Origin: Geodermatophilus siccatus
Lineage (GTDB): Bacteria > Actinomycetota > Actinomycetes > Mycobacteriales > Geodermatophilaceae
Direction of reading: 5' to 3'
Length of the DNA: 64,000 nucleotides
NCBI RefSeq assembly: GCF_900103785.1
Contig: NZ_FNHE01000003.1
Location: 434,001-498,000, forward strand
Shown: positions 10,986 through 64,000 of the stretch, piece after piece
Layout of the letters: each line of letters starts with the position of its first letter
Position numbering within the stretch: position 1 is the first letter of the stretch
Made by a program: the position numbers and the translations under genes
Notes under the pieces: generated by a model
Told to the model about the DNA's origin: nothing
The model's input: the letters and a program-made list of their open reading frames with translations, nothing else
The model's database searches: none

Positions 10986-11018
10986 ATGACGAGCAGGACG
11001 TGTCGGGTCTACGGGGAG

Positions 11019-47151: not shown

Positions 47152-47155
47152 GCGG

Positions 47156-48301
47156 TCAGCGGACCTCGGCCCCGGCCAGACTCGCGTACAGCTGCGTCAT
47201 CCGGTCGACCAGCCGGTCGTGCGAGCGGCTCGCGGCCAGCCGGCGGCCGTGGGCGCCGAGCCGCCGGGCCGACTCCGGGTCGAGCAGCAGCGACACCAGC
47301 GCCCGGGCCAGGTCCTCGGCCTCGCCCGGGCGCACCAGCAGCCCGCTGCCGCCGTCCTCGACCAGGTCGGGCAGCCCGCCCACCCGGCTGGCGACCACCG
47401 GCACGCCCGCGGCCATGGCCTCGCAGACCACCATCGGTGAGCCGTCGGACCGGGAGGGCACGGCGAGCACGTCGAGGCCGGTGAGCAGACGCGTGGCATC
47501 CGAGCGGTACCCGGTGAACGTGACCGCGCCGGCCAACCCGAGAACCGCCGCACGGTGCTCGAGGTCGGGCCGCAGCGGCCCGTCGCCGACCACGAGGAAA
47601 CGCGCCTGCGGGACGACGCCCGACACCAGTGCGGCGGCCCGCAGGAAGACGTCGACGCCCTTCTCCGGGACCAGCCGGCCCACCAGCCCGACCACCGGCC
47701 GTCCCGGGTCCGGGGCAGGGCTCCCCGCGGAGGGGACTGCGGCCGTCGTCGGCAGGAGCACCTCCACCCGCTCGGGCGCGACGCCGTAGCCGCTCACCAG
47801 CAGGTCCCGGATCGCCGAGGAGACGGCGACCACCCGGTCGGCGTGCCGGTAGACCAGGCCGCTCACCGCGCGCGTCCGGCGGTCCCGCCAGGGCCCCTCG
47901 GTGTGCTCGGTGACCACCAGCGGCACCGGCAGGTCGCGGACGGCGTGGACGGCGGCGGCCGCGCTGGCGAACAGGTGGGCGTGCACGACGGCCGGCCGCA
48001 GGTCGGCCACCAGCTGCGTGAGCGCGCGCTCGTACCGGCCGCTGACCCGTCGCTCGACGAGCTCGTCGAGCAGGGCGGTGACCGGCACCCCCGCGTCGGC
48101 GAGGGACGCGGCGTGGGCCCCGCCCACCGAGCAGGCCACGTGCACCGGCCACCCCCGCCGGTGCAGCGCGACGGTGAGGTCGACGACGTACCGCTCGGCG
48201 CCGCCTCCGTCGAGGGAGTCGATGACCATGAGCACGGACAGCGGCGGAGGGGTTCCGGCGTCGGGCCGGGGGACGGGGGTGCGCAGCCGGGAGCCGGTCA
48301 T
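47156..48301 (-). CDS. Glycosyltransferase, GT4 family
   Basis: A 381-residue GT-B-fold glycosyltransferase. The N-terminal domain has VLMVIDSLDGGGAERYVVDL and VVHAHLFASAAAAVHAV; the C-terminal domain has VVGLVGRLVPEKGVDVFLRA, RFLVVGDGPLRPDLE and the donor-binding DVLAVPSRSDGSPMVVCEAMA, where Glu of the EX7E-type motif is partly altered (SRSDGSPMVVCEA). It transfers a sugar from a nucleotide donor to a lipid or surface glycan; the substrate is unknown. The ATG at 48301 follows GGAGCGCCCC. Confidence 0.88.
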   Translation of the reverse strand: MTGSRLRTPVPRPDAGTPPPLSVLMVIDSLDGGGAERYVVDLTVALHRRGWPVHVACSVGGAHAASLADAGVPVTALLDELVERRVSGRYERALTQLVADLRPAVVHAHLFASAAAAVHAVRDLPVPLVVTEHTEGPWRDRRTRAVSGLVYRHADRVVAVSSAIRDLLVSGYGVAPERVEVLLPTTAAVPSAGSPAPDPGRPVVGLVGRLVPEKGVDVFLRAAALVSGVVPQARFLVVGDGPLRPDLEHRAAVLGLAGAVTFTGYRSDATRLLTGLDVLAVPSRSDGSPMVVCEAMAAGVPVVASRVGGLPDLVEDGGSGLLVRPGEAEDLARALVSLLLDPESARRLGAHGRRLAASRSHDRLVDRMTQLYASLAGAEVR

Positions 48302-48475
48302 GGGGCGCTCCGGAGGACGGCGGGACCCGCGGCTCGGGCCCGCCGACCATAGCCGTTCCGCGCGACGCAGAACCTCCGGCCGAGCGCCGTCCTGGTCGCG
48401 CGATGGCGTGCGCGAGGCTGGTGTCCCGGCCCCGATCAGGCCACCCGTCCCGACGGCACGACGCAGGGAGACCCG

Positions 48476-49636
48476 ATGCCCACCACCCCGCCCGCGGTCG
48501 TCGACCGCGGCGGCCGGCGCTACCCCCTCGACGAGCTCCGCTGGTGCGGCGACGACGGGTCGCCGCTCATGGTCGAGCCGCTGCCGGGCATCACGCGGGA
48601 CGCGATCGATCCGACGGTGCCGTCGCAGTGGCGGTACCGGGCGGCCCTGCCGCTGCCCGACCTGCCGCCGGTCACCCTGGGGGAGGGCCGGACGCCGCTG
48701 CTGCCGCGACGCCTCGCCGGGCTGGACGTCGCGGTCAAGGTCGAGGCGGTCAACCCCACCGCGAGCTTCAAGGACCGCGGGGTCTCCGTGATGGTCAGCG
48801 CCCTGCGCGCCCAGGGCGTGACCGCGCTGCTGGAGGACTCCAGCGGCAACGGCGGGTCCTCGGTTGCCGCCTACAGCGCGGCCGCCGGCATCGACGCGCT
48901 CATCCTCGCCCCGGCGTCGACGTCGTCGGCCAAGGTCCTGCAGAGCCGGCTGCACGGCGCCACGGTCGAGCTCGTCCCGGGGACCCGGCAGGACACCGCC
49001 AACGAGGCCGTCCGCCGGTCGAGGGAGCGCTTCTACGCCAGCCACAACTGGCACCCGATGTTCCTCCAGGGCACCAAGCTCATCGCCTACGAGATCTGGG
49101 AGGACCTCGGCTTCACCGCGCCCGACGCCGTCGTCCTCCCCACCGGCGCGGGGAGCCTCGTGCTCGGCTGCGCGATCGGGTTCGGCGAGCTGCAGAGGGC
49201 CGGTGAAATCACGCGCGTGCCCCGGATCCTGGTGTCCCAGCCCGCCCGGTGCAGCCCGCTGGTCGAGGCGCTGGCCGCCGGTCGCGACACCGTCGAACCG
49301 CGCACCTGGGAGCCGACGATCGCCGAGGGCACCGCCATCGCCCGACCGGTCCGCGACCGCGAGGTGCTCGCGGCCATCCGGGGGAGCGGCGGCTCGGCCA
49401 CCGCGGTCCGGGAGGAGGACCTGCGCGCCGCGACCCTGGCGCTCGCCGCGACCGGCCTGTACGTCGAGCCCACGTGCGGTCAGGTCGTCCCCGCGCTCGA
49501 GCACTTCGCGCGGGAGGGGCACGTGGCCGCCGGCGACAGCGTCGTGCTGGTCCTCACCGGCTCGGGCCTCAAGGCGAGCGACGCGATGGCCCGGCTGCTG
49601 GCCGATCAGCAGGGGGCGGGGTGGGGGAGGAGGTGA
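48476..49636 (+). CDS. Threonine synthase-like PLP enzyme
   Basis: A 386-residue fold-type II PLP enzyme. The PLP lysine is in NPTASFKDRGVSVMVSAL; SSGNGGSSVAAYSAAAGI is the phosphate- and substrate-binding loop. PTGAGSLVLGC and VVLVLTGSGLKASD match threonine synthase. The N-terminal part has the short leader YPLDELRWC rather than the zinc-ribbon-like start of typical threonine synthase. It may be a second threonine synthase or a related lyase. The ATG at 48476 follows GGGAGACCCG. Confidence 0.82.
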   Translation: MPTTPPAVVDRGGRRYPLDELRWCGDDGSPLMVEPLPGITRDAIDPTVPSQWRYRAALPLPDLPPVTLGEGRTPLLPRRLAGLDVAVKVEAVNPTASFKDRGVSVMVSALRAQGVTALLEDSSGNGGSSVAAYSAAAGIDALILAPASTSSAKVLQSRLHGATVELVPGTRQDTANEAVRRSRERFYASHNWHPMFLQGTKLIAYEIWEDLGFTAPDAVVLPTGAGSLVLGCAIGFGELQRAGEITRVPRILVSQPARCSPLVEALAAGRDTVEPRTWEPTIAEGTAIARPVRDREVLAAIRGSGGSATAVREEDLRAATLALAATGLYVEPTCGQVVPALEHFAREGHVAAGDSVVLVLTGSGLKASDAMARLLADQQGAGWGRR

Positions 49637-50230
49637 TGGGAGCCGGACCCGCGGGACCGGCTCGGAGAGCCGGACACCGGAGACCGTAGGGCCATCCGCG
49701 CTGGTCCGGGGTTCGTCCCGGTGTGCCACCGAGCCCGCGCGACCACTGTGCGACGCATCGCGGCCACTCCGGCTGCTCGTGGGCGCCCTCGCTCGGTGCC
49801 CCGGGAGTCGCTCGGCATGGTGGGGAGGGGGCGGGCGCCCTCGCCGTGGCGGTCGTCCGCGCCGTGCTGGTGGACGAGCCCCTGACGGGTGCCTCGCCGT
49901 GCGACGGTCAGCAGCGGGCTGCTGGGGGATCGCCGCTCTCCGGTCCCAGGCCGGACCCGTACCCGGACCGTCGTCCTGCTGCCAGTCCGGGCGCAGCGGT
50001 TCCTCCCCGGCCGCGGGACCGAGGAGACGGGCTGACACCGCTCGATCGCGCCGTCACTCAGCGCAACGACGCGCGTGCACACCCAACAATCATGTCCTGT
50101 GACCGGTTGCTCTACGCAGTGTTGCGGAGCACGGCCCTAGCCTCCGTCCCACTCGGCGCGTCCTCCGACGGAACAGCACGGAGGAGGACGCCGTCGGGGG
50201 ACCGAGCCGGTCCGTCCAAGGGGAGGCGCC
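49637..50230. other. Gap of 594 bases upstream of the conflict-type operon
   Basis: No convincing gene is present on either strand. Just before the patatin gene (about 50085-50160) the sequence is less GC-rich (for example AACAATCATGTCCTGTG), a place where a promoter for the six-gene operon is likely, but no box can be assigned firmly. Confidence 0.4.
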
Positions 50231-51475
50231 ATGGGCGTCGGACACGAGGCACCTGCCGTCGACGACTCGGTGCCGTTCGTCGACTCGCCGGCCGTCGGCA
50301 CCGGGCTCCGGATCACGCCGTGCGGGGACGACCTCCGGCCCGAGCCGCCGCCCGACAGCCGGGATCCGCTCGCGGTCACGCTCTCGGGCGGGGGGTTCCG
50401 GGCCACGCTCGCCGGACTGGGCGCACTGCGCCTCGTGGCCGGCACCGGGTCCCTCGGCGACCTGCGCTACCTCTCCTCGGTGTCCGGGGGCTCGATCACC
50501 AACGCGGTCACCGCTCTGGCCTGGCCGCGCCTGCGCGACCGCGGCTTCACGGCCGAGGCGTTCGACGAGCTCGTCGTCGAGCCGGTCGTCGCGCGGCTGT
50601 CGAGCCGCTCGTTGAAGTTCGCTCTCCTGCGCGGGCTGTGGCGCACGGTCGGACCGCAGACGCGGACCGACGTGCTCGCCCGTCGGCTGGACGAGTGGTT
50701 CCTGCACGAGGCGGAACTCGAGCACCTCGACCCCGGCGTCCGCTGGATCATCAGCGCCGCGAACATGATGTCGGGCGTGCGCTTCGGGTTCGAGCGCGAC
50801 GTCGTCGGCGACTACACCATCGGCCTCCTGGCGACGAAGGGAACCGGCCTCCGGCTCAGCCGGGCCGTCGCCGCCTCGGCCGCCGTGCCGGGGACCTTCG
50901 CGCCCGTCGTGCTCCGCGACCTCCCGTTCCCGTGCGGCACCGCCCCACCCGCCCTGCTGGACGGCGGGGTGTACGACAACACCGGTCTCGAGGCGCTCGA
51001 TGGCGAGCGGTACCGCGACGTCTTCCTGTTCACGATGAACGCCGGCGGCCTGCTGCGGGCCGGCTCGTACGGCAAGGTGCCGCTGGTCCGCGACCTCGCC
51101 CGGGCCAACTCCCTCCTGTACCGCCAGAGCACCACGCTGAGGACGCGGGACATGGTCAACCGGTTCCGTCGTGGACGAGAGCTCCCAGCGGGCTCGCCGC
51201 TGCCGGACGGTGCGCGCCGGGGGGTGCTGGTCTCGCTCGCCACCGACCTGCCCACCGAGCGACCGGAGCCGCTCCGGGCCTGGTGCGCCGCGCACCCCGA
51301 GCACCGGACGCACGACGGCCGCGACCTCGCCCTGGTCCCGACCGTCTTCGACAAGCTCGACGAACGGCTCTGCCGCGCCCTCGTGTACCGCGGGTGGTGG
51401 CTGATGGGAGCCGTGCTGGCGGCCTACCACCCTGAACGGCTGCCCTCCAGCGGCATCGGTCCGCCGCCGCTCTGA
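50231..51475 (+). CDS. Patatin-like phospholipase, first gene of the operon
   Basis: A 414-residue patatin-family lipid acyl hydrolase. The oxyanion loop SGGGFRATLAG has GGGFR at 53-57; the nucleophile is S85 in SSVSGGS, where Ser replaces the first Gly of the usual GxSxG; the catalytic Asp is D244 in LLDGGVYDN. No signal peptide. Patatin proteins are recurring membrane-damaging effectors in bacterial immunity (for example CapV in CBASS). Here it leads six same-strand genes and is separated from the next by 39 bases. The ATG at 50231 follows GGGGAGGCGCC. Confidence 0.88.
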   Translation: MGVGHEAPAVDDSVPFVDSPAVGTGLRITPCGDDLRPEPPPDSRDPLAVTLSGGGFRATLAGLGALRLVAGTGSLGDLRYLSSVSGGSITNAVTALAWPRLRDRGFTAEAFDELVVEPVVARLSSRSLKFALLRGLWRTVGPQTRTDVLARRLDEWFLHEAELEHLDPGVRWIISAANMMSGVRFGFERDVVGDYTIGLLATKGTGLRLSRAVAASAAVPGTFAPVVLRDLPFPCGTAPPALLDGGVYDNTGLEALDGERYRDVFLFTMNAGGLLRAGSYGKVPLVRDLARANSLLYRQSTTLRTRDMVNRFRRGRELPAGSPLPDGARRGVLVSLATDLPTERPEPLRAWCAAHPEHRTHDGRDLALVPTVFDKLDERLCRALVYRGWWLMGAVLAAYHPERLPSSGIGPPPL

Positions 51476-51514
51476 GACGGGCCGTCACGTCGGATCGGGA
51501 GAAGAGGAGGGATC

Positions 51515-52615
51515 ATGCCGACCGCGGATGAGGCCGGCCTCACCATCGAGGCCCTCCCCGTGCGGCAGGGCGACTGCACCCTGGTCACCTGGGGGCCGCA
51601 CACCGATCGCCACCGGATGCTGATCGACGCGGGCCCGGTGCCGGCCTATCCCGCGGTGCACCGCAGGATGTCCCGGCTGGAGCCCGCGGAGCGGCACCTC
51701 GACGTCGTCGTCGTCACGCACGTCGACGCCGACCACATCGAGGGGGTCCTCCGGCTGCTGAACGACGCCTCCCTCGGCCTCACCGTCGGCGATGTGTGGT
51801 TCAACGGCTACCAGCACCTGCCCTCCGACGACTTCCTCGGCCCCGTGCACGGGGAGATGCTCGGCGCGCTGCTGGACGAGCGGCACCTGCCCTGGAACGC
51901 CCGCTTCGATGGCGCGGCGGTCAGCCGGGCGCGGGGAGCGCCTCCGGCCGAGGTGGAGCTCGACGGCGGCCTGCGGGTGACCGTTCTCGCCCCGTCGGAC
52001 AGGGAACTGGCCGCCCTGCGCCCGGTCTGGGAGCGGGAGTGCCGCCGGGCGGGCCTGGTGGCGGGGTCGTCGCGGGACGCCCTGCCGAGACTGCAGCGGA
52101 CGAAGAAGTACAACCCGCTGGACTCCTACCTCGACCCCGGCGACGCGCTCGCGGAACTGGCCGACACGCCCACCGCAGACGACGACTCGGAGGCCAACGC
52201 CAGCAGCATCACCCTCCTCCTCGAGCTGGACGGCGGGAGCGCCCTCCTCGCGGCCGATGCGACGCCGACCGCCCTGAGCAGCGGCCTCGAGGCGCTGTCG
52301 GCCCGACGGACCGGGCCGACGCTCGCCGTCGACGTCCTCAAGCTCCCCCACCACGGCAGCAGCCGGAACGTCACCGCCGACGTGCTCCGAGCGGTGCCCG
52401 CGGGCACCTACCTCGTCTCGACCGACGGCAGCTACTTCGGCCACCCCCACGACATCGCCATGGCCAGGGTCCTCACCTACGGCTCGTCGGGCGGAACGCT
52501 GGCCTTCAACCACCGGACGGCGACGACCGAGGAGTGGTCGGCGACCGGCCGCTCGGTCGGCTTCGGCGCCGTGCTGCCCGACGAGCCGGCCGACGGCGTG
52601 CGACTGGAGGTCTGA
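51515..52615 (+). CDS. MBL-fold metallo-hydrolase, ComEC-like
   Basis: A 366-residue stand-alone metallo-beta-lactamase-fold enzyme. The metal site H69xDxD-H74 is intact in VVVTHVDADHIEGVLRLL; LLLELDGGSALLAADAT, KLPHHGSSRNV and DGSYFGHPHD follow, as in the soluble domain of ComEC and in small MBL hydrolases found in conflict operons. It probably cleaves a phosphodiester or a nucleotide. The ATG at 51515 follows GAAGAGGAGGGATC. It ends five bases before the CHAT gene, so it is surely in the operon. Confidence 0.88.
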   Translation: MPTADEAGLTIEALPVRQGDCTLVTWGPHTDRHRMLIDAGPVPAYPAVHRRMSRLEPAERHLDVVVVTHVDADHIEGVLRLLNDASLGLTVGDVWFNGYQHLPSDDFLGPVHGEMLGALLDERHLPWNARFDGAAVSRARGAPPAEVELDGGLRVTVLAPSDRELAALRPVWERECRRAGLVAGSSRDALPRLQRTKKYNPLDSYLDPGDALAELADTPTADDDSEANASSITLLLELDGGSALLAADATPTALSSGLEALSARRTGPTLAVDVLKLPHHGSSRNVTADVLRAVPAGTYLVSTDGSYFGHPHDIAMARVLTYGSSGGTLAFNHRTATTEEWSATGRSVGFGAVLPDEPADGVRLEV

Positions 52616-52620
52616 CGGCC

Positions 52621-53742
52621 ATGGGCGGGACCGAGACGGCGACACGGGAGATCCAGGTCCGGGTGCTGTCCTCGGGAGAGGTCGACGCCCGCCGGGACGA
52701 CGGCGCCACCTGGCAGGGCGGGAGCATCCAGTTCTCCGGCGTGGACGCCGAACTCATCCGGATCTTCGCCCGCTGGCTCACCGAGCGGGGCCGGGAGTGG
52801 CGGTGGGACGAGGTACGGGCCTTCGGCAGCCTGCTGCACCGGAGTCTCTTCCCCGCGGGCCTGTGGAGCTGGGTCGAGCAGTCGATGACCGAGTTCGGGG
52901 ACAGCCGCCTGCGCCTGCAGCTGGAGTTCCCGTCGGAGGGCCTGGCCGACCTCGCGGCCGTGCCGTGGGAGTACCTGCACGTGCCGAACCGGCCCGGCCG
53001 GGAGGGCTTCTTCCTGGCGGCGGACCACCACGTGATCCTCACGCGGTTCGTCCAGTCGGAGCGGGGCCGACGGGCTCTCGGGGGTGAGCCGCGGATCAGC
53101 GTCCTCGTGCTGACCTCCCAGCCGCAGGACCTCGGCGAGGTCATCGCCGGCCCGGTGGTCGAGCAGCTCGAGAAGCTCCGGAGGGAGAAGGAGCTGCCCC
53201 TGGACGTCGTGGTCCTCGAGCAGCCCTCGCGCTCGTCGCTGAGGGACCAGGTGCAGGAGACCCGTCCCCACGTCGTGCACTTCATCGGCCACGGGCAGTT
53301 CGACGCCGAGCACGCGGAGGGCCAGATCGCGCTCGTGGGTGGAACGGGCCGGGCCGACTGGGTCGGCGAGCAGGCGCTCGCCCAGCTCCTCGACGCCGGC
53401 GGGACGCTTCCGCGGCTGACCCTGTTCCACTCGTGCGCCGGTGCCCAGGTCGACTACCGCGCCAGCTTCGCCGGACTCGCGCCACGGCTGATCAAGCGTG
53501 GCGTGCAGTGCGTCGTCGCCATGCAGTACGCGGTGACGAACCGGACGGCGCTGGAGTTCGCTCGGATCTTCTACGACCGGTTGGGCCGGGGGCTCCCGGT
53601 CGACGAGGCGGTCCAGGCCGGGCGGATGGAATTGCACGTCATCTACGGGGACGACTCGCGGCTGCTGGGCATCCCGGTGATCTACCTCAACAGCCGGGAC
53701 GCCGTGCTGCTCCCCCCGACGACCCCGTCCCCTTCCCCCTAG
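52621..53742 (+). CDS. CHAT-domain protease, active site intact
   Basis: A 373-residue caspase-like CHAT protein. The catalytic dyad is H224 in HFIGHGQFD and C272 in FHSCAGA. The N-terminal 150 residues hold the upstream part LRLQLEFPSEGLADLAAVPWEYL, which in CHAT proteins precedes the protease fold. VVAMQYAVTNRTALEFARIFYDRL and LGIPVIYLN complete the domain. CHAT proteases cleave partner proteins, for example in TPR-CHAT pairs and gasdermin systems. The ATG at 52621 is coupled to the MBL gene. Its own target is not visible; the degenerate paralogue next door is a candidate partner. Confidence 0.92.
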   Translation: MGGTETATREIQVRVLSSGEVDARRDDGATWQGGSIQFSGVDAELIRIFARWLTERGREWRWDEVRAFGSLLHRSLFPAGLWSWVEQSMTEFGDSRLRLQLEFPSEGLADLAAVPWEYLHVPNRPGREGFFLAADHHVILTRFVQSERGRRALGGEPRISVLVLTSQPQDLGEVIAGPVVEQLEKLRREKELPLDVVVLEQPSRSSLRDQVQETRPHVVHFIGHGQFDAEHAEGQIALVGGTGRADWVGEQALAQLLDAGGTLPRLTLFHSCAGAQVDYRASFAGLAPRLIKRGVQCVVAMQYAVTNRTALEFARIFYDRLGRGLPVDEAVQAGRMELHVIYGDDSRLLGIPVIYLNSRDAVLLPPTTPSPSP

Positions 53743-53750
53743 GACCTGGC

Positions 53751-55181
53751 GTGGACGACGGATACGAGTACCGCATCGTGGTCGACACGGACCTCCGCGG
53801 TTTCAGGAGCGGGCCGGGCGAGACGGTGCCCACCGAAGTGGCCCGCGCCCCGCGGACGGACGACGCGCTGCAGCGGGAGACGGTGCGGGTGCTCCGGCTC
53901 TGGCTGGACCGATGGCCGGCCATCCGGCAGCAGAAGAAGCTCCCCGTCCCGGACACCTTCAAGCTGCTCGGCAGCTACCTCTACCGGACCGTGTTCCGCG
54001 AGGCCGTCGAGACCAAGTTCCGGGAGGTGCGCGAGGAGGCGGAGCGCGACGACCTCACCCTGCGGGTCGACCTCGCCCTGGGGCCGGGCGCCGGGGAACT
54101 GGCCGAGTGGCCGTGGGAGCTGCTGTACTCGCCGGACTGGGGCGGCGAGTTCCTCGCCAAGGCCTCCGGACTGGTGCTCAGCCGGAGCCTCAACCAGACC
54201 CGCTTCCCCAACCGGCACCAGGACCCACCGCTGCGGGTCTACTGCATCATCGCCGTGCCCGACACGCCCGCCTACGCGGCCCAGCGCGAGGAGCTGACCG
54301 AGGCGCTGACGGGGATGACCGAGTACAGCAGGACCATCCAGCCCGAGATCACCGAGCGGTGGAACCAGAAGACCGTGCAGCAGCGGCTGCGCACGGCTCC
54401 GCACCCCCACATCATCCACTTCGTGGGGGTGTGCCGGCGGCGGTGGGAGGGCGGGGTCCTCAACCTGCAGATCTGCCTCGACGACGGCTCGGGCGGCCAC
54501 GAATGGGCGAGTACGACCGCGCTCGTGGACCTGCTGGCCAGCGGCGGCACGCCGCGCGGGGAGAACCGGGCCCGGCTCGCCGTCCTCCACCTCAGCGAGC
54601 CCTCGCCGCTGGACTTCGACGTGACCTTCGAGCGGCTCGCCCCGGCCCTCATCCAGCGCGGGATCCCCGCGGTGCTGGCCATGCAGTACCCGCTCACCGG
54701 CGAGCCCGCCGCGCGCTTCATCCGGCTCCTCTACGAGAAGATCGCCGAGCACAAGAGCATCGAGGAGGCCGTCCAGTGCGCCCGCGGCGAGCTCTTCGTC
54801 GACCTGCAGGACGACCTCGCCTTCGGCTCGCCCGTCCTCTACATGCAGAGCCTCGACAGCCAGTTGCTCCCGGGCGCGGACGCCGTGCCGGGCACGGCCG
54901 GAGCCGGGCCCGGCGGTGTGGTCACCACCCTCCTGCCGGCCGGGTCCCTGCGGGACGCCCTCCTCGCCGCTCTGACCGTGCTGCCCGAGAGCCCGGTGAC
55001 CGCGGGGGTGCGCCTCGAGGTGGAGCGCAACACCTGGCCCGACAGCGCTGTCGGGGTGGGCCAGCTGCTGGCCCGGCGCATCCGCGAATCGGTCTCCCGA
55101 CCGGACGAGCTGGTCGTCTACGAGGAGCTCGCCCGGGTCGTCTCCGAGTGGGAGAGGGGCGGTGGTCTCCTTGCCGGCTGA
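53751..55181 (+). CDS. Degenerate CHAT-like protein with C-terminal extension
   Basis: A 476-residue paralogue of the preceding CHAT protein. Residues about 105-370 align with it (WPWELLYSPDWGGEF, IIHFVGVCRRR, LHLSEPSPL, VLAMQYPLTGEPAARFIRLLYEK, SPVLYMQS). At the catalytic positions, His is V227 (HFVGV) and Cys is S282 (HLSEP), so it is presumably inactive and serves as scaffold, regulator or substrate. Residues about 395-476 (GSLRDALLAALTVLPE, PDELVVYEELARVVSEWE) form a separate helical module resembling an adaptor domain. The GTG at 53751 is eight bases after the previous stop. Confidence 0.85.
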   Translation: MDDGYEYRIVVDTDLRGFRSGPGETVPTEVARAPRTDDALQRETVRVLRLWLDRWPAIRQQKKLPVPDTFKLLGSYLYRTVFREAVETKFREVREEAERDDLTLRVDLALGPGAGELAEWPWELLYSPDWGGEFLAKASGLVLSRSLNQTRFPNRHQDPPLRVYCIIAVPDTPAYAAQREELTEALTGMTEYSRTIQPEITERWNQKTVQQRLRTAPHPHIIHFVGVCRRRWEGGVLNLQICLDDGSGGHEWASTTALVDLLASGGTPRGENRARLAVLHLSEPSPLDFDVTFERLAPALIQRGIPAVLAMQYPLTGEPAARFIRLLYEKIAEHKSIEEAVQCARGELFVDLQDDLAFGSPVLYMQSLDSQLLPGADAVPGTAGAGPGGVVTTLLPAGSLRDALLAALTVLPESPVTAGVRLEVERNTWPDSAVGVGQLLARRIRESVSRPDELVVYEELARVVSEWERGGGLLAG

Positions 55182-58100
55182 CAGCGAACGCAGTCCTGTG
55201 CGTGACGACCTCGACGCCGTGAGCCGGGCGGTCACCGACGACCTCGCCGCCGTCTCGATCGGGCCGCTGGCCCTGGCGGCCCGGGGGTGGCTGGCCTGGC
55301 AGCTGCGACGGGCGTCGTCCTACGACCAGGCCGGTGACGTGCTGCGGACCCTGGAGGACGAGCTGTCGGCCATGGCCGGGAGGCTCCGGGCGCAGCGCTC
55401 CCGACTGGACGCGCTCCGCGAGAGCCGGGTCCTCACCGATCCGGCCGGCCCCGCGTGGCGGGACGACGTCCGGACGCGGTTGTCGGGCACGCCCCGGGCG
55501 GACCGAGCCGCCGTGTGGCGCAACTTCTACGCCGCGGCCTTCTGCGCCTCCCAGTTCGAGGCTTGCCTGTGGCTCTGCGACGCCGATGGTGTCCGCCCCG
55601 ACGACGACACACGCCGCCAGCTGCGCGGCTCGGCGGAGGCCGCACGCCACGGACTGCTCGCCTACACCCTCCCTGGGCTGGAGCTGCTCACCGATCCCGC
55701 CTGCAGCGCCGCCATCGACGACGACGTGCGGGGGCGGTGCTGGGTGATGCGCGCCCGTGCCGTCTGCCGGGGGCTCAACGAGCCGGGAGCCGCCGTCGAG
55801 CTGCTCGGTTCCCTCACCGGCGCGTCACAGCCGTGGTCGTCCACCGTGCGCGCGGTGGTGCACGTGGCGTTGGGCGAGGCGCTCCTCGACCACGGGGACC
55901 CCGCGGCGGCGCAGGACGAGTTGCACCGGGCGCTCCTCGCCAGCGAGGCCGAACCGAGTGCGCACGTCCTGGGCGGCATGATCGCCGAGGCCGCCGGCGA
56001 AGTGGCACGCGCGGAGCAGTGGTACGACGCGGCCCTCGCGCTGGACGCGGAGCGCGTCGTGTCCGGGGCGCTGTTCGCGCCGGTCCCGCCGATCCTGCTC
56101 TGGCGCCACGGCCGGCGGCTGCGCAGTTCCGACACCGAGCGTGCCGTCACGGCGATCCGACGAGCGCTCCAGGAGGCCCAGGCCCTGCCCGCGGGCGCCT
56201 TTCCCGAGCGAAAGGCGTACGTGGACCTCGCGCGGACCCACGACCGGGCCGGCAACCGCACCGAAGCAGGCCGGGCCTACGCGAAGGCCGCCCAACGTTA
56301 TGCGGCCAAGGGTGACCGGTCCACGGCGCGGGAGTACATCGGCCTGGCCGTGGAGCGGCAACCGGCCGAGGTGGAGTACCGCTTCCTCTACGCCGAGGCC
56401 CTGCGGCTGGAGGCGGTGCGCCAGGACGGGCTCGTGGACCTGGTCCGGCTCGCGGAGGCGGCGCAGCACTGGTCGGAGGGGATGGTCCGGGCCGCTGACG
56501 GCGGCCAGCCGCCGTGGGTCTACGCGACCGGCGCGTCGATCGCCCACCTGCGCTCCGGCGACCTCTACCGGCCCAGGGCGTCCACCTCCGCCACGGCCGT
56601 CCTCGAACGGGGCCTGCTCGTGGCGCCCGCCGATCGGCAGCTGACGGGCCCGCTCTCCCAGGCCCACCGGCTGATCGGCAACCCCTGGGCAGCGCTGGAC
56701 CTGAGCCGGCAGGGACTGGAGCGCGACCCCGGCAACGAGGTGCTGTTCGACCAGCACCTCCTCGCCCTCCTCGAGCTCGAGAGACCCCAGGAGGCCCTCG
56801 AGCTCGTCACCGCCCGCCCGATGAGTCGGCGGACCCCCTGGCTGATCAACCGGACGGTCCAGATCCTGATCGAGCTCGGCCGTCCGGGGGAGGCCGTGGA
56901 GGTCCTCGAACGGCACAGCACGGGCGACGACGTCATGCACGCGCTGCAGGTCGGGCTCTGCCACTGGCTGGACGGACGTCCCGAGGACGCGTCCCGGGCG
57001 TACGCTCTGGCCGCCGACCGGGCCGACGCAGAAGGCCAGCGGCGGGACAACCTCCGGGCCTGGGCACTGCACCTGCTCGGGCGGCACGACGAGGCCGTGG
57101 ACGTCTACGAGCCGCTGCTCACCGCGGACCGGCGGGACCCCTCCCTGCACTGGGAGTACGGGCAGATGCTCCTGGCCCGCGGCCGCACCGGGGACCTGGA
57201 ACAGGGCGCCCGAGAGCTGGACGACGGCATCCGGATGGCGCGCAGCCGGTACGCCCTCTCCGTCCTCGTCCGGATGGACCTCCCCCGGCTCCTCCAGCTC
57301 ACGGAGCACGCCCCGCACGCCGACCGGCTGCGGGCCGAGGTGAACCGTGTCCGGACCACCGTGGCCGGCCTCGTCGAGGACCTGCGGGGCGCCGGGAACG
57401 CCGTCGAGGAACTGGAGCGGTGCCTCGACCTCCCCGCCCATCCCGCGGACGACGACGACGGCGCCGACCGCCGCCGGGCCTGCTTGGCCGGGCTGGCGCG
57501 GCTCGAGGCGGCCGACGACCGCACGCGGGCGCTGCGCCGCTATCTGCGGCTCGGCGCCGACCCCGCCGTCCCGGAGGCATCCCTGGGGACACGACGCGTC
57601 GTCCGCGACGTGTGGGCCGAGATCGAGGCGACCGCCCGGCAGGCCACGCCCGACGAGGGCCTGACCGCCGCCGAGGCGCTGCTGTCCCTGCTCTCCGGCG
57701 CACCCGGCGTGCCACCGGACGTGCTGACCACCACCCGGCTGCGCGCGGCCCTCCTGGCCGCACGCGCAGCACGACAGCAGCGGTTCGCCGAGCACCTGAC
57801 CGCGGCGCTGGCGGAACCGGCGCCCGGGGCCAGCGCTGCCGTGGCCTCGACGCTGGCCGAGGCCGTGGACACGTTCGCGACCTACTGGGTGGTCAGAGAC
57901 GCCGCCCAGGAGATGGGCCGCAGCGTTGCGGCCGGCAGCCCGGAGTGTGAGGCCGTCCGGCGACTCCTCGACGCCCTGCCCCTCGCCGGCCTGCTGCGGA
58001 CCCGGCGGGAGGACGTCGATCCGCGGCGCATGTACCCGCTCCTCACACCGCTGGCCATCCGCGTGGGCGCGGCCCTGTGGCCGAAGAACGACCCGGACCG

Positions 58101-58893
58101 GACCAGTGCCTGGCGGTCGGCGGTCACCGAGCTCCGTGGGCGCATCCAGGACGAGGTGGGGGTCCTCCTGCCGCACGTCGGCCTGGGGCTGGACCCGGAC
58201 CTCGCCGACGACGCGTACCGGGTCGAGCTGTACGACGACGTCCGTGTCCGCGGCACCGTCCAGGTCACCGCCGACCAGGACAGCGCGCAGTGGGCGGCCG
58301 CCGTGGACACCGTGGTGGCGCGGCTCGAGGAGGTCGCCCGGGGCACCCTGAACCGGCTCTTCACCATCGACGACGTCGCGCTCTGGCTGGGCGGCGGGGC
58401 CTTCCCCGAGGCCTCTCGTCAGGCGCTGGCCCGGACCAGCCGGTCGGAACGGCTGGAGCTCCTGCGGCTCCTCCGGCTGCTCCTCCGCGAGCAGGTCCCC
58501 ATCGTCGACCGCGACACCATCCTCGCCGAGGTGGCGCGGCACGAGCCGCACTGGAGCGCACCGGCCGCGCTGCCCGCCGTCCGCCGCCGCCTCCTCGCCG
58601 CCGACCGGGCATCCATCGTCGACGGCGTCCCGAGCGCCACCCTCCCGGTGGACCTCGAGCAGCGGCTCCGTGCCGGCCTCGACCCGGAGGACCCCAGCGT
58701 GTGGCAGCTCCCGCGGGAGGAGGCCACCACCCTGGCCGCCGCCCTGGCCGCCTGGCACGAGGACGCGGGTCACCCGCGCTGCGTGTCCATGGGCAGCGCC
58801 GAGCTGCGGCCGTACGTGTGGCGGCTGCTCGCCATGACGTCCGACCACCCCGTCCGGGTGCTGAGCAAGGAGGAGATCGGTGTCCGCACCTGA
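55162..58893 (+). CDS. TPR protein with C-terminal FlhA-cytoplasmic-like domain
   Basis: A 1243-residue protein. Residues about 60-900 are helical repeats of TPR kind (for example FERGLL-type pairs: AVLERGLLVAPADRQLTGPL, LDLSRQGLERDPGNEVLFDQ, VDVYEPLLTADRRDPSLHWE). From about 955 it resembles the cytoplasmic domain of FlhA: LTPLAIRVGAALWP, VTELRGRIQDEVGVLLPHV, and LLRLLRLLLREQVPIVDRDT with TILAEVA near 1108. There is no transmembrane part. It overlaps the CHAT-like gene by 20 bases and the next gene by 14. A GTG start at 55162 with GGGAGAGGGGC before it is used. It is probably the platform of the complex. Confidence 0.85.
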   Translation: MVSLPADSERSPVRDDLDAVSRAVTDDLAAVSIGPLALAARGWLAWQLRRASSYDQAGDVLRTLEDELSAMAGRLRAQRSRLDALRESRVLTDPAGPAWRDDVRTRLSGTPRADRAAVWRNFYAAAFCASQFEACLWLCDADGVRPDDDTRRQLRGSAEAARHGLLAYTLPGLELLTDPACSAAIDDDVRGRCWVMRARAVCRGLNEPGAAVELLGSLTGASQPWSSTVRAVVHVALGEALLDHGDPAAAQDELHRALLASEAEPSAHVLGGMIAEAAGEVARAEQWYDAALALDAERVVSGALFAPVPPILLWRHGRRLRSSDTERAVTAIRRALQEAQALPAGAFPERKAYVDLARTHDRAGNRTEAGRAYAKAAQRYAAKGDRSTAREYIGLAVERQPAEVEYRFLYAEALRLEAVRQDGLVDLVRLAEAAQHWSEGMVRAADGGQPPWVYATGASIAHLRSGDLYRPRASTSATAVLERGLLVAPADRQLTGPLSQAHRLIGNPWAALDLSRQGLERDPGNEVLFDQHLLALLELERPQEALELVTARPMSRRTPWLINRTVQILIELGRPGEAVEVLERHSTGDDVMHALQVGLCHWLDGRPEDASRAYALAADRADAEGQRRDNLRAWALHLLGRHDEAVDVYEPLLTADRRDPSLHWEYGQMLLARGRTGDLEQGARELDDGIRMARSRYALSVLVRMDLPRLLQLTEHAPHADRLRAEVNRVRTTVAGLVEDLRGAGNAVEELERCLDLPAHPADDDDGADRRRACLAGLARLEAADDRTRALRRYLRLGADPAVPEASLGTRRVVRDVWAEIEATARQATPDEGLTAAEALLSLLSGAPGVPPDVLTTTRLRAALLAARAARQQRFAEHLTAALAEPAPGASAAVASTLAEAVDTFATYWVVRDAAQEMGRSVAAGSPECEAVRRLLDALPLAGLLRTRREDVDPRRMYPLLTPLAIRVGAALWPKNDPDRTSAWRSAVTELRGRIQDEVGVLLPHVGLGLDPDLADDAYRVELYDDVRVRGTVQVTADQDSAQWAAAVDTVVARLEEVARGTLNRLFTIDDVALWLGGGAFPEASRQALARTSRSERLELLRLLRLLLREQVPIVDRDTILAEVARHEPHWSAPAALPAVRRRLLAADRASIVDGVPSATLPVDLEQRLRAGLDPEDPSVWQLPREEATTLAAALAAWHEDAGHPRCVSMGSAELRPYVWRLLAMTSDHPVRVLSKEEIGVRT

Positions 58894-60463
58894 GCAGACG
58901 GGCTTCCGCGCCGGCGCCCGGCGCGTCTTCCGCGAGGCGGTCCGGATCGCGCAGCTCCCGCGCCTCGACGTCCGGCTGGTCACGGCTCCCCCGACGACGG
59001 GGCCGGCGGACACGGACGCGGCTGCATCCCGCGTCGCGGACGTCCTACGGGTGCGCATGGCGGAGCTGGGCGTGCCAGGCGTCCCCGTCGTGCAGGTCGC
59101 CCTCGAGCCCGGGGCCGAGTTCCCCCGGCTGCACATCGCCGGCCAGCCGTGCCGGATCCCGCAGGACCGGCTCGCCGCGGCCCTGGCGCCGACCGGTCCG
59201 GTCCAGGGGGCGGACGGGGATGACGACGACCAGGCAGGAGCCGACTGGCCCACCGAGGTGGCCACGGCCTGCCAGGTGGCCGTCGAATGGGACCCGTCGG
59301 TGGTGATCGGCCCGCCCCAGCGCGCGGCCCTGGTGTCAGCGGTCCGGAAGGCCGGGATGACCGCCCACGCGCCGGACGTGCTGGGAGCGGCGCTGCAGGC
59401 GGTGGTGGCCAACGGGGTGTCCTGCCGTGACACGGCTGCCGTCGTCCGGGTGCTCGAGACCGCCCAGGGCGGCGCGTCGACCGACGCCGAGCTGGCAGAG
59501 GTGCTCATCGCCGGGCTGTCCCCGGGCGTGGTCCTGGTCGGGCTGCCCCAGCGGCTCCTGCGCGAGATGACCCGGGACGAGGTGGACCCTGAGACCTTCT
59601 CCCGCATGCGGGTCCGGCTGTACGAGGAGCTGGGGCTGCGGGTCCCCGACATCGACATCCGCATCGATCCGCGGGTGCCCGACGGCTGCTGCACCGTGCG
59701 GCTGCACCACACGGCGTTCCGGCCGCAGCGGCTGCCCGAGCCGGTCACGATCGAGGCCCTCGCGGCCGCCGTGGAGTCACGGGTGCGCGAGCACGCATGG
59801 TGGTTCGTCCACCTCGACGAGGTCCACAGCACCGTGGACCAGGTCCGGCTGGCACTGCCCGAACTCGTGGGCGCGGTCACCGACCGGTACAGCGAGGTGC
59901 AGCTCGCCGTCCTGGCCCGCACGCTGCTGGCCGAGGCGGTGCCGCTGCGCAACCCGCCGCGGCTGATGGTCCTGCTGCTCGACGTGCCGGCGATGGGCAG
60001 CGGCCGGGATGTCGTGCGCCTGGCCGAGCCGCACCGGTCCGAGCCGGAACGTCCGGCTCCGCGGCCGAGCCCGGGGCAGGTGCTGAGCTACGCCCGGCAG
60101 CAGGTGCTCGAGGAACGCACGCGCACCGAACCGGGACTGCGGGACGTCGTGGTGGACCAGGTCCCCGACCGACCCCGTGCTGGGAACGCCGGCGCCCTGC
60201 ACCGCGGTCGCCCCGCGGACACGCCCCCCGGGTTCGTCAACGCACTGCTCGAGCAGGCCGCCCGTGCCGTCGGGAGCGAGTGGGGACTGGTCGCGGCCAG
60301 CCAGGCGGAGCGGGACGTCGCCCACCGCCTGTTGCACTGGCAGTACCCCGAGGTGGCGGTGCGGGTGTCCCAGGAGTTCCCGCCGACCTACCGGCTGCGG
60401 CCCAGGCCCACCGGCCCGGTGCCGGCCGCGGACGGCACCGCCCGGGCCGAGACGTCCGCGTAG
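58880..60463 (+). CDS. Soluble FlhA-cytoplasmic-domain-like protein
   Basis: A 527-residue protein, last gene of the operon. It has the order of the FlhA cytoplasmic domain without membrane spans: RMRVRLYEELGLRVPDIDI (about 243-262), LPELVGAVTDRYSEVQLAVL and ARTLLAEAVPLRNPPRLMVL (about 325-370), and at the end PPGFVNALLEQAARAVGSEW with LLHWQYPEVAVRVSQEF, matching the FlhA C-terminal subdomain. An earlier, weaker similar unit lies at about 50-100 (VRMAELGVPGVPVVQVAL). AAGGAGGAG precedes the GTG at 58880. No flagellar or type III secretion gene is nearby, so it is not a secretion protein. Confidence 0.83.
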   Translation: MSAPEQTGFRAGARRVFREAVRIAQLPRLDVRLVTAPPTTGPADTDAAASRVADVLRVRMAELGVPGVPVVQVALEPGAEFPRLHIAGQPCRIPQDRLAAALAPTGPVQGADGDDDDQAGADWPTEVATACQVAVEWDPSVVIGPPQRAALVSAVRKAGMTAHAPDVLGAALQAVVANGVSCRDTAAVVRVLETAQGGASTDAELAEVLIAGLSPGVVLVGLPQRLLREMTRDEVDPETFSRMRVRLYEELGLRVPDIDIRIDPRVPDGCCTVRLHHTAFRPQRLPEPVTIEALAAAVESRVREHAWWFVHLDEVHSTVDQVRLALPELVGAVTDRYSEVQLAVLARTLLAEAVPLRNPPRLMVLLLDVPAMGSGRDVVRLAEPHRSEPERPAPRPSPGQVLSYARQQVLEERTRTEPGLRDVVVDQVPDRPRAGNAGALHRGRPADTPPGFVNALLEQAARAVGSEWGLVAASQAERDVAHRLLHWQYPEVAVRVSQEFPPTYRLRPRPTGPVPAADGTARAETSA

Positions 60464-60608
60464 GGCGACGGCGTGGCTCGCACGCCCGGCCCCGGGCGGC
60501 CCGCCGTGCCGCCACGGAGGTCGGTTCGTCACCACCCGCGCCCGAACCCTCTTCGTCCACGTCTGCAGCGCCCTGCGCCCCTCCCGCCGTCAGGACCCGC
60601 TCGTCTGT

Positions 60609-61150
60609 TCAGCGCGGGTCGATGGGGGTGAGGACGCCTGCTCGGGCCTCGATGACCGTGGCGGCTTCGAGCGGGTGTCCTCGTCGAACCGCCGCCCGAG
60701 GAGCTGCACGCCCGTGGGCAGGGCGCCGGCCACCCCGGTGGGCACCGACATGGCCGGGAACCCGAGGACGGGGATCGCCATCATCGACGCCTGCGCGGCC
60801 ACGAGCCGGCGCATGCTCTCCACGCTGACGATGTCGGCGTCCTGCTCGAACGCCTACTTGAACGCCTGCTCGGCCGACACCGGGAGGAGGACGAGCGGGT
60901 GGGACTCGAGGACCTCGGCGAGCCGGCGGATGAGCGTGCCCCGGCGGGCGTATCCGGCGATGAACTGGTCGAGCGTCGGCTTCTCGCCCCACCAGTCGGC
61001 CGCGACGGCGTAGTAGTGCTCTGCTGCCTTCTGCATCCCCTTGTCGCCGACCTCGTCGACCATCGGCATGGCGAGGCGGAACTCCTCCATGCACAGCAGG
61101 TACCAGAGCCGGTAGGCCTCGGCGAGGACGGGCAGCAGTCCGCTGAGCGG
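60609..61150 (-). pseudogene. Broken amidase-signature gene (C-terminal remnant)
   Basis: The minus strand encodes the last third of an amidase: LSGLLPVLAEAYRLWYLLC, HPLVLLPVSAEQAF, SMRRLVAAQASMMAIPVLGF, MSVPTGVAGALPTGVQLLGR, then EAATVIEARAGVLTPIDPR in another frame. An in-frame TAG stops it at about 60854-60856, next to a duplicated GCGTTC. A frameshift occurs near 60675. The triad-bearing N-terminal two thirds are absent. The break near 61147 coincides with an inverted repeat. Confidence 0.85.
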
Positions 61151-61282: not shown

Positions 61283-64000
61283 TCACCGAGCCGAGTCGCA
61301 GGGGGCGTTCGCGCCGTCGAGCTGCTCCAGCCTGGCACGCAGTCGTTCGGCATCGGGGTGGGCCAGCTGGTCGAGGATGGTCAAGGCCTGCTGCCAGGCG
61401 TCGCGGGCGGCGTGGGTGTCGCCTGCCCTCCGTCGGGCTTCGCCGACGGCAGCGAGTGCGTTGGCTTCGTAGAACCGGTTCCCGAGCTCCCGGAACAGCT
61501 CCACTGCGTGCCTGTAGCAGTCGAAGGCCTGAGCGTGGTGGTCGAGACGACTGTGGGCGAGGCCGAGGCTGTCCCAGGTGGCGGCCTCCCCGTGGCGGTC
61601 ACCCATCTCCCGGAACAGGGTCAGCGCTCGCTCGCAGCAGGTCAGGGCCTGGCGGTGGTCGTCGAGCAGAGCGTGGCACCAGCCGACCGTGTTGAGGGCC
61701 CGGGCCCGCCCCTCGCGGTGATCGACGGCCTCGAACAGCTGCAACGCCCGGCGAGCGTGGTGGAGCGCCTCAGCAGGGCGGCTCTGCCGCTCGAACAGGC
61801 GCGCGAAGTTGATGTGGGTGTGGGCCTGCCCGACCCGGTCGTCCAGTTGCTCGAACAGGCCCAGCGCCTGCCGGGCTTCGTCGATGGCTTCGTCGAGGCG
61901 ACCCAACCGGATGTAGGCGCCTGCGAGACCGCGGTGAGCCAGGGCCTGGGCGAGCGGATCACCCAGCCGGTGGGCAACGGCCAGCGCGGTGCGCCCGACG
62001 GCGACCCAGTCGTGCCAGTGCCCCCGCCAGTCCAGGAACATCTCCATGCTCCAGACCAGTTGCCAGGCGTGGGTGTCCAAGCCCGCCGACACGGCCTGGT
62101 CGACGGCGGCCAGCAGGACCGGGTGCTCGGCGGCGAACCATGCGAGGGCCTGTCCGGCGTCAGCCAGGCCCGCGAGTGACACTCCGGCGCACTGCTCGAC
62201 CAGGCTGATCGGGATCCTGATCCAGTGCAGCAGCTGTGCGGCGGTGTAGCAGCTCTGCAGGTAGTGGTCCAGCAGCCGGCGGGTTGCCGCGCACCGGTCG
62301 GCCCCCGTGTCGACGGTGCGGGCCAGTTCCGTGGCGTAGGCACGGAGCAGGTCGTGGAGGGCGTACCGACCCGGTGTCAGCTCGGCGAGCAGGTGACTGC
62401 CGCTCAGCTCGGCCAGCAGGGGCCGCACCCGCGCGAGTGGCAGCCCGGCCAGGCTGGCCGCCGCGGGGGCCGTGAGGTGTGGACCGGGGTGGAGCCCCAG
62501 GAGGCGGAACAGCCGCGCCGCCTGGTCGCTGAGTTGCCGGTAGGACCAGGAGAACACGCTGCGCACGTCCGAGGCCGGACCGTCCTGGCTGGCGAGCGCA
62601 TCCAGCCGAGCCTGCGCCTCGCGTAGCTCATCGGCCAGCGTGGCGAGGGGGAACGTCGGCTGAGCGGCGGCCCGGGCGGCCACCATCGTCAGTGCCAGCG
62701 GCAGACGGGCGCACGAGGTGACGATGTCCGTGGTGGCCCGGGGTTCGGCTGCGATCCGGTGCTCACCGCAGCGGCGCGCCAAGAGGGCCTGGGCCTCGTC
62801 GTGGGTGAACACGTCGAGGGTCAGCGGCTGGGCGCCGGCGCCGGCGATCAGGCCCGTCAGCCGGTTGCGGCTGGTGACCAGGACCAGGCAGCCGGGGGTG
62901 CCGGGCAGCAGGGGGCGGACCTGGGCGGTGTCGCGGGCGTTGTCCAGCACGACCAGCATCTTCTTGCCGGCCAGGCGGCTCCGGTACAACGCCGCCTGGG
63001 ACTCCAGGTCCACCGGTAGGCGCTCGAGCGGCACCGCGAGAGCGTCGAGGAAGCCGTGTACTGCCTCGGCCGGGACCATCGGCTGTCCACTGGGGTCGAA
63101 TCCACGCAGGTTGACGTACAGCTGTCCGTCGGGGAACCGGTCCGCGACCTGGTGAGCCCAGTGCACCGCCAGCGTCGTCTTGCCGATGCCGGCGGTGCCG
63201 GCGATCGCCGAGATGACCACCGGGGCGCCGGCGGCGGTCGCTTCGGCCAGCAGCGCGTCCAGCGCCGCCACCTCGGCGGCCCGGCCGGTGAAGTGGCGGA
63301 TGGGGGGAGGGAGCTGCCGCGGGACCGGGGTGGTCCGGCCCGGGACGGAGGTCGCGGTCCGTGCGGGGAGGAGTGCCGGATCGTTGCGCAGGATCTGCCG
63401 GTGCAGGTGCTGCAGCGACCTGCCGGGGTCGACGCCGAGCTCGTCGGCCAGCGACCGGCTCAGTCGCCGGTAGACCCCCAGCGCCTCGGCCTGTCGGCCG
63501 GATCGGTACAGGCCGAGCATGAGCAGTTCGTGCAGCCCCTCGCGGAAGGGATGTCGGACGACGAGGTCCTCGAGCTCCGTGATCACCTGGCCGTGCTGCC
63601 CCACGGCCAGGTCCGCCTGGAGGCGCATCTCCAGTGCGCGGAGCCGCTGCTGTTCCAGCCGCGGGATCTCGGCCTGCGCGAAGGGCTCGGCGGTGAACTC
63701 CGACAGCGGTTGCCCGTACCACAGATCGAGCGCCTCCTGGAGCGCGCTCGCGGCCCTGGCCGGCGCCAGGGCCAGCTCCCGGGCACCTTCGCGGGAGAGC
63801 CGCTGGAAGCGGCGGAGGTCGAGCCGCTCGGGGTCGAGGTCGAGGGCGTACCCGGGTCTGCGGCGGTGGAGGATCCCTCCGCCGAGTGGCTCGGACTCCT
63901 CCTCGGTCAGGAGGGTCTTCCGTAGCCGGGAGACGTACACCTGGACGATGTTGGTCGCACTCGCCGGCGGCCGGCCTCCCCACAGGCCATCGATGAGGGT
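61283..64000 (-). CDS. SARP/AfsR-type regulator with NB-ARC and TPR domains, partial
   Basis: Runs off the right edge, so the first residues are missing; 905 codons are visible. The N-terminal winged helix is seen in part (LWGGRPPASATNIVQVYVSR), then the bacterial transcriptional activation domain (FREGLHELLMLGLYRSGRQAEALGVYRRLSR). The NB-ARC/STAND ATPase has P-loop GTAGIGKTT, MLVVLDNARD (Walker B) and LVTSRN. TPR repeats fill the last 350 residues (LGLAHSRLDHHAQAFDCYRH). Such proteins activate secondary-metabolism or stress genes. It is not clear whether it controls the adjacent operon. Confidence 0.92.
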   Translation of the reverse strand, partial: TLIDGLWGGRPPASATNIVQVYVSRLRKTLLTEEESEPLGGGILHRRRPGYALDLDPERLDLRRFQRLSREGARELALAPARAASALQEALDLWYGQPLSEFTAEPFAQAEIPRLEQQRLRALEMRLQADLAVGQHGQVITELEDLVVRHPFREGLHELLMLGLYRSGRQAEALGVYRRLSRSLADELGVDPGRSLQHLHRQILRNDPALLPARTATSVPGRTTPVPRQLPPPIRHFTGRAAEVAALDALLAEATAAGAPVVISAIAGTAGIGKTTLAVHWAHQVADRFPDGQLYVNLRGFDPSGQPMVPAEAVHGFLDALAVPLERLPVDLESQAALYRSRLAGKKMLVVLDNARDTAQVRPLLPGTPGCLVLVTSRNRLTGLIAGAGAQPLTLDVFTHDEAQALLARRCGEHRIAAEPRATTDIVTSCARLPLALTMVAARAAAQPTFPLATLADELREAQARLDALASQDGPASDVRSVFSWSYRQLSDQAARLFRLLGLHPGPHLTAPAAASLAGLPLARVRPLLAELSGSHLLAELTPGRYALHDLLRAYATELARTVDTGADRCAATRRLLDHYLQSCYTAAQLLHWIRIPISLVEQCAGVSLAGLADAGQALAWFAAEHPVLLAAVDQAVSAGLDTHAWQLVWSMEMFLDWRGHWHDWVAVGRTALAVAHRLGDPLAQALAHRGLAGAYIRLGRLDEAIDEARQALGLFEQLDDRVGQAHTHINFARLFERQSRPAEALHHARRALQLFEAVDHREGRARALNTVGWCHALLDDHRQALTCCERALTLFREMGDRHGEAATWDSLGLAHSRLDHHAQAFDCYRHAVELFRELGNRFYEANALAAVGEARRRAGDTHAARDAWQQALTILDQLAHPDAERLRARLEQLDGANAPCDSAR

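Follow-up and report, generated by a model that had tools for sequence, protein, structure and literature searches.

In a 64,000-nucleotide stretch of the Geodermatophilus siccatus genome (hereafter the window; NCBI RefSeq assembly GCF_900103785.1, contig NZ_FNHE01000003.1, positions 434,001 to 498,000), we analysed an operon of six genes encoding a patatin-like phospholipase, a metallo-β-lactamase (MBL)-fold hydrolase, a CHAT protease with an inactive paralogue, and two proteins related to the cytoplasmic domain (FlhA-C) of the flagellar export gate, the larger of which carries tetratricopeptide repeats (TPR). We read it, with a probability of about 0.6, as an abortive-infection module (leading to suicide or growth arrest) that is switched on by a protease and works in the manner of Canu, with DNase and lipase effectors and a TPR/FlhA-C scaffold. 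Canu is the caspase-nuclease system CanABC, described in 2025 (Tuck et al. 2025, PMC12799240). The operon is probably best called a variant of protease-activated pro-nuclease defence with new features.

Organisation, conservation and mobility of the operon

The six genes are co-directional, with junctions consisting of gaps of 39, 5 and 8 bases followed by overlaps of 20 and 14 bases. A re-check of the coordinates reproduced exactly the six open reading frames, three gaps and two overlaps reported in a preliminary description of this DNA, and Pfam agreed with its domain assignments for the patatin, the MBL, both CHAT proteins and the TPR and FHIPEP regions of gene 5.

50231..51475, + strand: gene 1, patatin-like phospholipase, 414 aa (ATG start; Pfam PF01734)
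51515..52615, + strand: gene 2, MBL-fold hydrolase, predicted gated pro-nuclease of ComEC type, 366 aa (ATG start; Lactamase_B)
52621..53742, + strand: gene 3, CHAT1 protease, dyad His224/Cys272, 373 aa (ATG start; Pfam PF12770)
53751..55181, + strand: gene 4, CHAT2, inactive CHAT paralogue, 476 aa (GTG start; Pfam PF12770)
55162..58893, + strand: gene 5, TPR protein with FlhA-C-like C-terminus, 1243 aa (GTG start; TPR models, FHIPEP)
58880..60463, + strand: gene 6, FlhA-C-like protein of weak homology, 527 aa (GTG start; FHIPEP below cut-off)

In base composition the operon does not differ from the rest of the window (GC 0.743 versus 0.749). Promoter and terminator scans of the operon gave no match, the sigma-70 consensus used being badly suited to this organism. 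The next called gene 3′ of the operon is convergent and encodes a BTAD/SARP-type regulator in both this genome and the second operon-bearing genome described below (window 61283-64000; L011 1361-2188), possibly by chance.

All six genes recur, in unchanged order and on one strand, in a second genome of the genus (G050), with local protein identities of 32, 49, 45, 32, 28 and 28% for genes 1 to 6. The junctions in G050 are four 4-base overlaps and a 3-base gap between genes 4 and 5, with start codons chosen manually. Since the gene set and its order are shared with G050, the operon is more than a chance gene cluster, and we rule out the latter; the preliminary description had made its proposal depend on neighbours being conserved together elsewhere, and here they are.

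The intact operon is very rare in the genomes searched and confined to one genus. Among 112 genomes of the family, gene 6 matched two, the source genome and G050 (E 1.9e-11), and a gene 5 pair profile, built including G050's own sequence, likewise matched two (the source genome, G000, and G050). Gene 5 found only the source genome among 396 genomes of the phylum, with at most two candidates scored per genome so that divergent copies can escape, and its pair profile found only the source genome among 394 genomes of the class, again with at most two candidates scored per genome. Gene 5 had no match among 72,556 plasmid records; none of the 276 stretches picked out by gene 6 alone in genome contigs, and none of the 28 picked out by CHAT1 in viral contigs, was confirmed as a relative. 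CHAT1-like proteins do occur in five genomes of the class and as a second copy in the source genome, where the flanks gave matches to CHAT proteins only, and in eight further genomes of the family, none of which matched the gene 5 profile.

The site is variable. In G049 two pieces of the window are found, 47150-48392 and 60607-61135, which lie about 2 kb apart there versus 12.2 kb in the window; the match to G044 runs up to 49617, beyond which the sequences differ. Only 50173-52063 has a counterpart in Modestobacter excelsi (L128), at 88.9% DNA identity and with neither flank matching. In this remnant (L128:2989-5063) the patatin looks intact and is 91% identical, the MBL is broken into several frames, and the 14.9 kb examined showed no sign of genes 3-6. 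The edges of the insertion can be placed as follows.

Within 49617..50173: putative left insertion edge (end of the G044 match; start of the M. excelsi remnant)
Within 60463..60607: putative right insertion edge (start of the G049 match at 60607)

This pattern of presence and absence, together with the decayed Modestobacter remnant, is the trace left by a cargo operon that was gained and lost. Neither an integrase nor an end repeat was identified, though no systematic search for either was made. The interpretation as a conserved, patchily distributed conflict-type operon is supported. As a separate observation, the stretch at 60607-61135 (G049: L145 15217-15735) is 94.5% identical between the two genomes versus 85% for the other flank, and is perhaps a recently moved element.

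Predicted functions of the components

The preliminary description assigned the MBL hydrolase no role; in our analysis it is the best-supported effector of the operon, a predicted ComEC-like enzyme with gate-like loops. It matches Pfam Lactamase_B (28.3 bits; cut-off 22.7) and has the motifs HVDADH and HHGS. AlphaFold2 models it with confidence throughout, apart from the N-terminus and two loops (residues 101-110 and 201-230), and the best solved fold for this model is the ComEC domain, the second being the phosphorylcholine esterase Pce. The sequence scores highest with defence MBL models and is similar to Avs1a and LmuA, its 179 bits lying below the curated Avs1a cut-off of 420. Between HVDADH and Asn228, the region containing both loops, the protein is about 80 residues longer than ComEC; the sequence alignment with ComEC is not significant across the gate 1 stretch, and a split of this excess into two insertions is not visible. 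ComEC-like gated pro-nucleases are known from Avs1, Hachiman and Canu defences, with cut places reported at I118 and I218 of HamM and at I134 and I234 of Avs1a (PMC12799240), and the two low-confidence loops resemble these places.

51719..51736, + strand: MBL metal site HVDADH, residues 69-74 (motif)
51803..51889, + strand: candidate gate 1, about residues 97-125 (low AlphaFold2 per-residue confidence, pLDDT, at 101-110; limits putative)
51995..52186, + strand: candidate gate 2, about residues 161-224 (low AlphaFold2 pLDDT at 201-230; limits putative)
52121..52135, + strand: DSYLD motif in gate 2, residues 203-207, candidate protease site (common to G050; cleavage putative)

Gate 1 keeps G109/G113, and gate 2 has DSYLD instead of a glycine motif. 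A loose gate-2 motif of the [ED]x[FYL]G type, defined after viewing the alignment, is present in 27 of the 28 MBLs linked to C14 proteases (24 genome loci and 4 plasmids), 5 of 10 linked to CHAT-like proteins, 8 of 24 unassigned ones and neither of the window and G050 proteins. The sole C14-linked MBL without it (L127) is split between frames. Because there are just two FlhA-linked members, we offer DSYLD in gate 2 as a hypothetical CHAT cut site only.

Three MBLs were used to scan genome contigs, which produced 260 pattern matches and 60 loci, 21 of the loci labelled as Streptomyces. Within 5 kb of the MBL relatives, a caspase-fold protease was found at 36 of the 60 loci (a Pfam CHAT match at L086 falls outside the 36), a lipase at 28 and both at 24, with 0 and 1 farther out, the CHAT-like profile having been built from 7 of the same 60 loci and the patatin and CHAT profiles including the window and G050 (L072). 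For the 38 loci with full flanks the counts were 28, 23 and 20, with 0 and 0 farther out. Plasmid searches returned 45 records, 6 of which were examined: four encode a caspase, an unnamed protein and the MBL, two of these with an adjoining lipase (a patatin on the other strand in L068, a Tle1-like protein in L066), and the remaining two (L070, L071) have no annotated caspase.

A cassette of lipase, C14 caspase, unnamed 400-500 aa protein and MBL recurs in Streptomyces, a Mycobacterium, rhizobial plasmids and others (L082, L085, L089, L093, L094, L096-L102, L105, L109, L110, L126; L066, L068); L067, L069, L091 and L095 hold the caspase, unnamed protein and MBL with no lipase match. The unnamed protein gave no Pfam match over cut-off in the four copies scanned. 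These lipase cassettes are widespread and resemble Canu loci to which a Tle1-like or patatin lipase has been added. The combination of lipase, caspase-fold protease and MBL recurs across phyla, and the intact six-gene operon is found in one genus, plus the Modestobacter remnant.

Other relatives keep different company. L074 has an nSTAND1-WD40 neighbour, and L086 has a Tle1-like protein and a CHAT protein with a below-cut-off TPR-S match. Seven MBLs have a large partner whose C-terminus bears LPH(T/S/N) and GC(N/D/S/E)T motifs:

L073:398-3193, L076:7176-10019, L078:3689-6481, L079:7065-9977, L081:8089-9987, L084:7194-9971, L108:7851-9980: large MBL partners, 630-970 aa

The C-terminal region gave no Pfam match over cut-off in the six partners scanned (all except L084). 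The two motifs look like a His-Cys dyad, and the proteins are perhaps an undescribed caspase/CHAT-like peptidase; the L108 protein is a fusion with an Mrr N-terminal domain.

Genes 3 and 4 of the operon both match Pfam CHAT PF12770 (77.2 and 52.6 bits; cut-off 24), the only model over cut-off, with no match to the C14 caspase model PF00656 at E up to 1. The PADLOC SAVED_CHAT model matches the CHAT domain with 37.7 bits, and the best NCBIfam family for CHAT1 is HetF, at 73 bits far below the cut-off of 1200. In both genomes gene 3 encodes the dyad His224/Cys272 and gene 4 lacks both residues, which bears out the earlier description of a dead CHAT paralogue. By analogy with pseudo-caspases, the role of this conserved inactive partner may lie in regulation or docking.

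The patatin (Pfam PF01734, 60.3 bits; cut-off 27.7) has Ser85 within SVSGGS and Asp244 within DGG. The preliminary description called both the patatin site and the CHAT dyad intact: all four residues are in place, and the first Gly of the textbook GxSxG motif is replaced by Ser in the patatins of both genomes. Compared with the M. excelsi copy, the ratio of non-synonymous to synonymous substitution rates (dN/dS) is 0.20 over 412 codons. Since lipases recur beside this MBL clade, a role for the patatin as a membrane effector is plausible.

Both of the last two proteins had been described as FlhA-cytoplasmic-like modules. By sequence comparison the homology is solid for gene 5 but weak for gene 6. 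Gene 5 matches FHIPEP at 51.8 bits (cut-off 29.1) besides the TPR models, and its C-terminus aligns with residues 328-647 of 8 true FlhA proteins in hhalign (probability 94.9, E 4.4e-8). Gene 6 reaches 28.0 bits with FHIPEP, just below cut-off, and is a weak relative both of true FlhA (probability 28.6, E 6e-4) and of the gene 5 C-terminus (probability 61.8, E 7.7e-5). For the G050 orthologue of gene 6 no Pfam model matched at E up to 1, a phmmer search of the PDB with genes 5 and 6 returned nothing solid, and an AlphaFold2 model of gene 6 from 4 sequences had a pLDDT of 42.3.

58048..58884, + strand: FlhA-C-like domain of gene 5, about residues 963-1241 (hhalign versus 8 true FlhA)
59537..60040, + strand: FlhA/SctV-like stretch of gene 6, residues 220-387 (FHIPEP, SctV profiles)

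The FHIPEP match is limited to positions 327-653, with none to the N-terminal membrane half, and the highest 19-residue hydropathy is 1.33 in gene 5, 1.85 in gene 6 (one stretch) and 1.25 in the G050 orthologue of gene 6. The gene 5 domain is about 38 residues shorter than FlhA between FlhA positions 400 and 487, the gaps falling mostly at 400-451, in or near what we take to be the second subdomain of FlhA-C, which presumably helps to bind export chaperones. Such a reduced subdomain would fit a non-secretory role. With at most two candidates scored per genome, 51 of 394 class genomes had an FHIPEP match of any kind and, among the matches listed, only the source genome has more than one. Because a separate full-length FlhA (859 bits) is encoded on another contig of this genome, the conclusion that the FlhA-like proteins of the operon are not the flagellar export gate is supported; the earlier proposal of a conflict system had hinged on their not belonging to a true secretion apparatus.

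Elsewhere in the window, GC falls to 0.655 at 10001-12000, versus about 0.75 in other parts, a possible foreign patch. A predicted tRNA-Ala of 93 bases at 42335-42427 overlaps an open reading frame whose start, we assume, resembles ribose-5-phosphate isomerase B, and is probably a false call.

Known systems and alternative explanations

Like Canu, the operon encodes a caspase-fold protease together with a ComEC-like MBL carrying flexible loops and an extra large partner protein, and the modelled fold of gene 2 appears to be the ComEC-like MBL nuclease fold of that system; TPR proteins occur in some canu loci (PMC12799240). The protease of Canu is a C14/MALT1-like caspase, whereas here it is a CHAT protein; the nuclease gene of Canu lies downstream of the protease gene, whereas the MBL gene precedes the CHAT1 gene in both genomes; an Ig-like partner was not detected in the operon; and the glycine conserved in both Canu gates gives way to DSYLD at gate 2. 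Beyond Canu, the operon has an inactive CHAT partner, a patatin and an FlhA-C-type scaffold, and neither 'CHAT' nor 'lipase' occurs in the main text of PMC12799240. Because it lacks the C14 protease and the gene order, we do not file the operon as Canu, though it would work in the same way.

The MBL is similar to Avs1a and LmuA of the trypsin-MBL pairs (AVAST type 1, Hachiman HamMAB, Lamassu, DRT), but no trypsin-like protease, STAND, SMC, helicase or reverse transcriptase was matched in the six proteins. Craspase (type III-E CRISPR, with the TPR-CHAT protein Csx29) reportedly likewise combines TPR repeats with a CHAT protease under the control of a partner complex; here TPR and CHAT are on separate genes, and no Cas7-11 match was found among the six proteins. 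The C-terminus of gene 5 is homologous to the cytoplasmic domain of FlhA and SctV, but the protein differs from them in being fused to TPR repeats and in its missing membrane half and shortened mid-domain. Resemblance to CBASS SAVED-CHAT lies in the CHAT domain, and there is neither a SAVED nor a CD-NTase cyclase match among the six. Among the matches listed from the open-licence literature, we found no description of FlhA/FHIPEP domains in such a defence system; none of these matches contained FHIPEP, and one, a paper on Campylobacter phage infection (PMC8540345), contained the words FlhA and 'chat'. By passage search, the main text of PMC7159879 contains no CHAT, patatin or FlhA, and PMC10907252 no FlhA or patatin.

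Several observations on the MBL weigh against a defence role. In the MBL tree the window and G050 proteins (99/90) group with L083, L087 and L092 (99/88), the latter three having shorter second gates. The L083 MBL has short gates and lies inside a [NiFe]-hydrogenase cluster (L083:9404-12581), that of L087 adjoins IMPDH genes, and no protease was recognised near that of L092. Since close relatives thus sit among metabolic genes, membership of the wider MBL group alone does not imply defence. These metabolic sisters (L083, L087), the below-cut-off HetF match of CHAT1 and the Pce fold match would all suit a developmental or stress proteolytic cascade of the cell's own, with a HetF-like CHAT, an MBL hydrolysing lipids or nucleotides and no anti-phage role. 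We consider this unlikely: core genes would be expected in most relatives, but the operon is present in only 2 of 112 family genomes, at a variable site and with a decayed Modestobacter copy, and its MBL scores best with defence MBL models. About equally improbable is a defence system in which the patatin kills and the MBL makes or destroys a nucleotide or lipid signal instead of acting on DNA. Signal-gated patatin effectors are known in CBASS, lipases recur with this MBL group (28/60), and purifying selection was measured for the patatin, the only gene for which this was possible. However, the operon has no cyclase match, and the ComEC domain is the best fold match of an MBL whose flexible gate-like loops would need another explanation.

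An interbacterial competition or antitoxin-type addiction module, in place of phage defence, is very improbable. Tle1-kind lipases beside related MBLs do have a Pfam name that refers to a type VI secretion effector, but the six genes include no small immunity-like gene and no repeat-rich toxin architecture, and form a tight operon of mostly large proteins that look cytosolic by hydropathy and Pfam. The least probable reading makes the FlhA-like proteins a side piece of an export gate delivering the patatin or the MBL. The FHIPEP and SctV profile matches in genes 5 and 6, the full-length FlhA in the genome and the one hydrophobic stretch of gene 6, which its G050 orthologue lacks, can be cited for it. 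Yet gene 5 aligns to the cytoplasmic domain only, with low maximal hydropathy, no other secretion gene is among the six, and the missing export-gate membrane half and the true FlhA elsewhere in the genome mostly rule out a secretion apparatus.

Proposed mechanism and its meaning

In the protease-activated module that we favour, the TPR/FlhA-C protein (gene 5) and the FlhA-C-like protein (gene 6) would serve as sensor and scaffold. A trigger, likely a phage structure or activity, would cause this scaffold to assemble or shift, and the active CHAT1, docked with the conserved inactive CHAT2, would be switched on. Cleavage of the MBL's gating loops by CHAT1 would then release a ComEC-like DNase that degrades DNA, and the patatin phospholipase may act as a second effector on the membrane, directly or after release by the same cascade. 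We infer the sensing, the oligomerisation (possibly as rings), the proteolytic activation, the DNase activity, the lipase effector role and the part played in phage defence. Tentatively, and at less than even odds, FlhA-C could have been taken from secretion and fused to a TPR sensor to give an apoptosome-like platform that switches on CHAT protease, gated DNase and lipase at once.

If this reading is true, the class of protease-activated pro-nucleases would widen to include CHAT proteases accompanied by a conserved inactive partner, for which DSYLD in gate 2 supplies a concrete cut-site hypothesis, and a lipase would be added to the class as a third recurring component. The sensor or scaffold would derive from an export-gate domain, a part of a secretion machine recruited to immunity.

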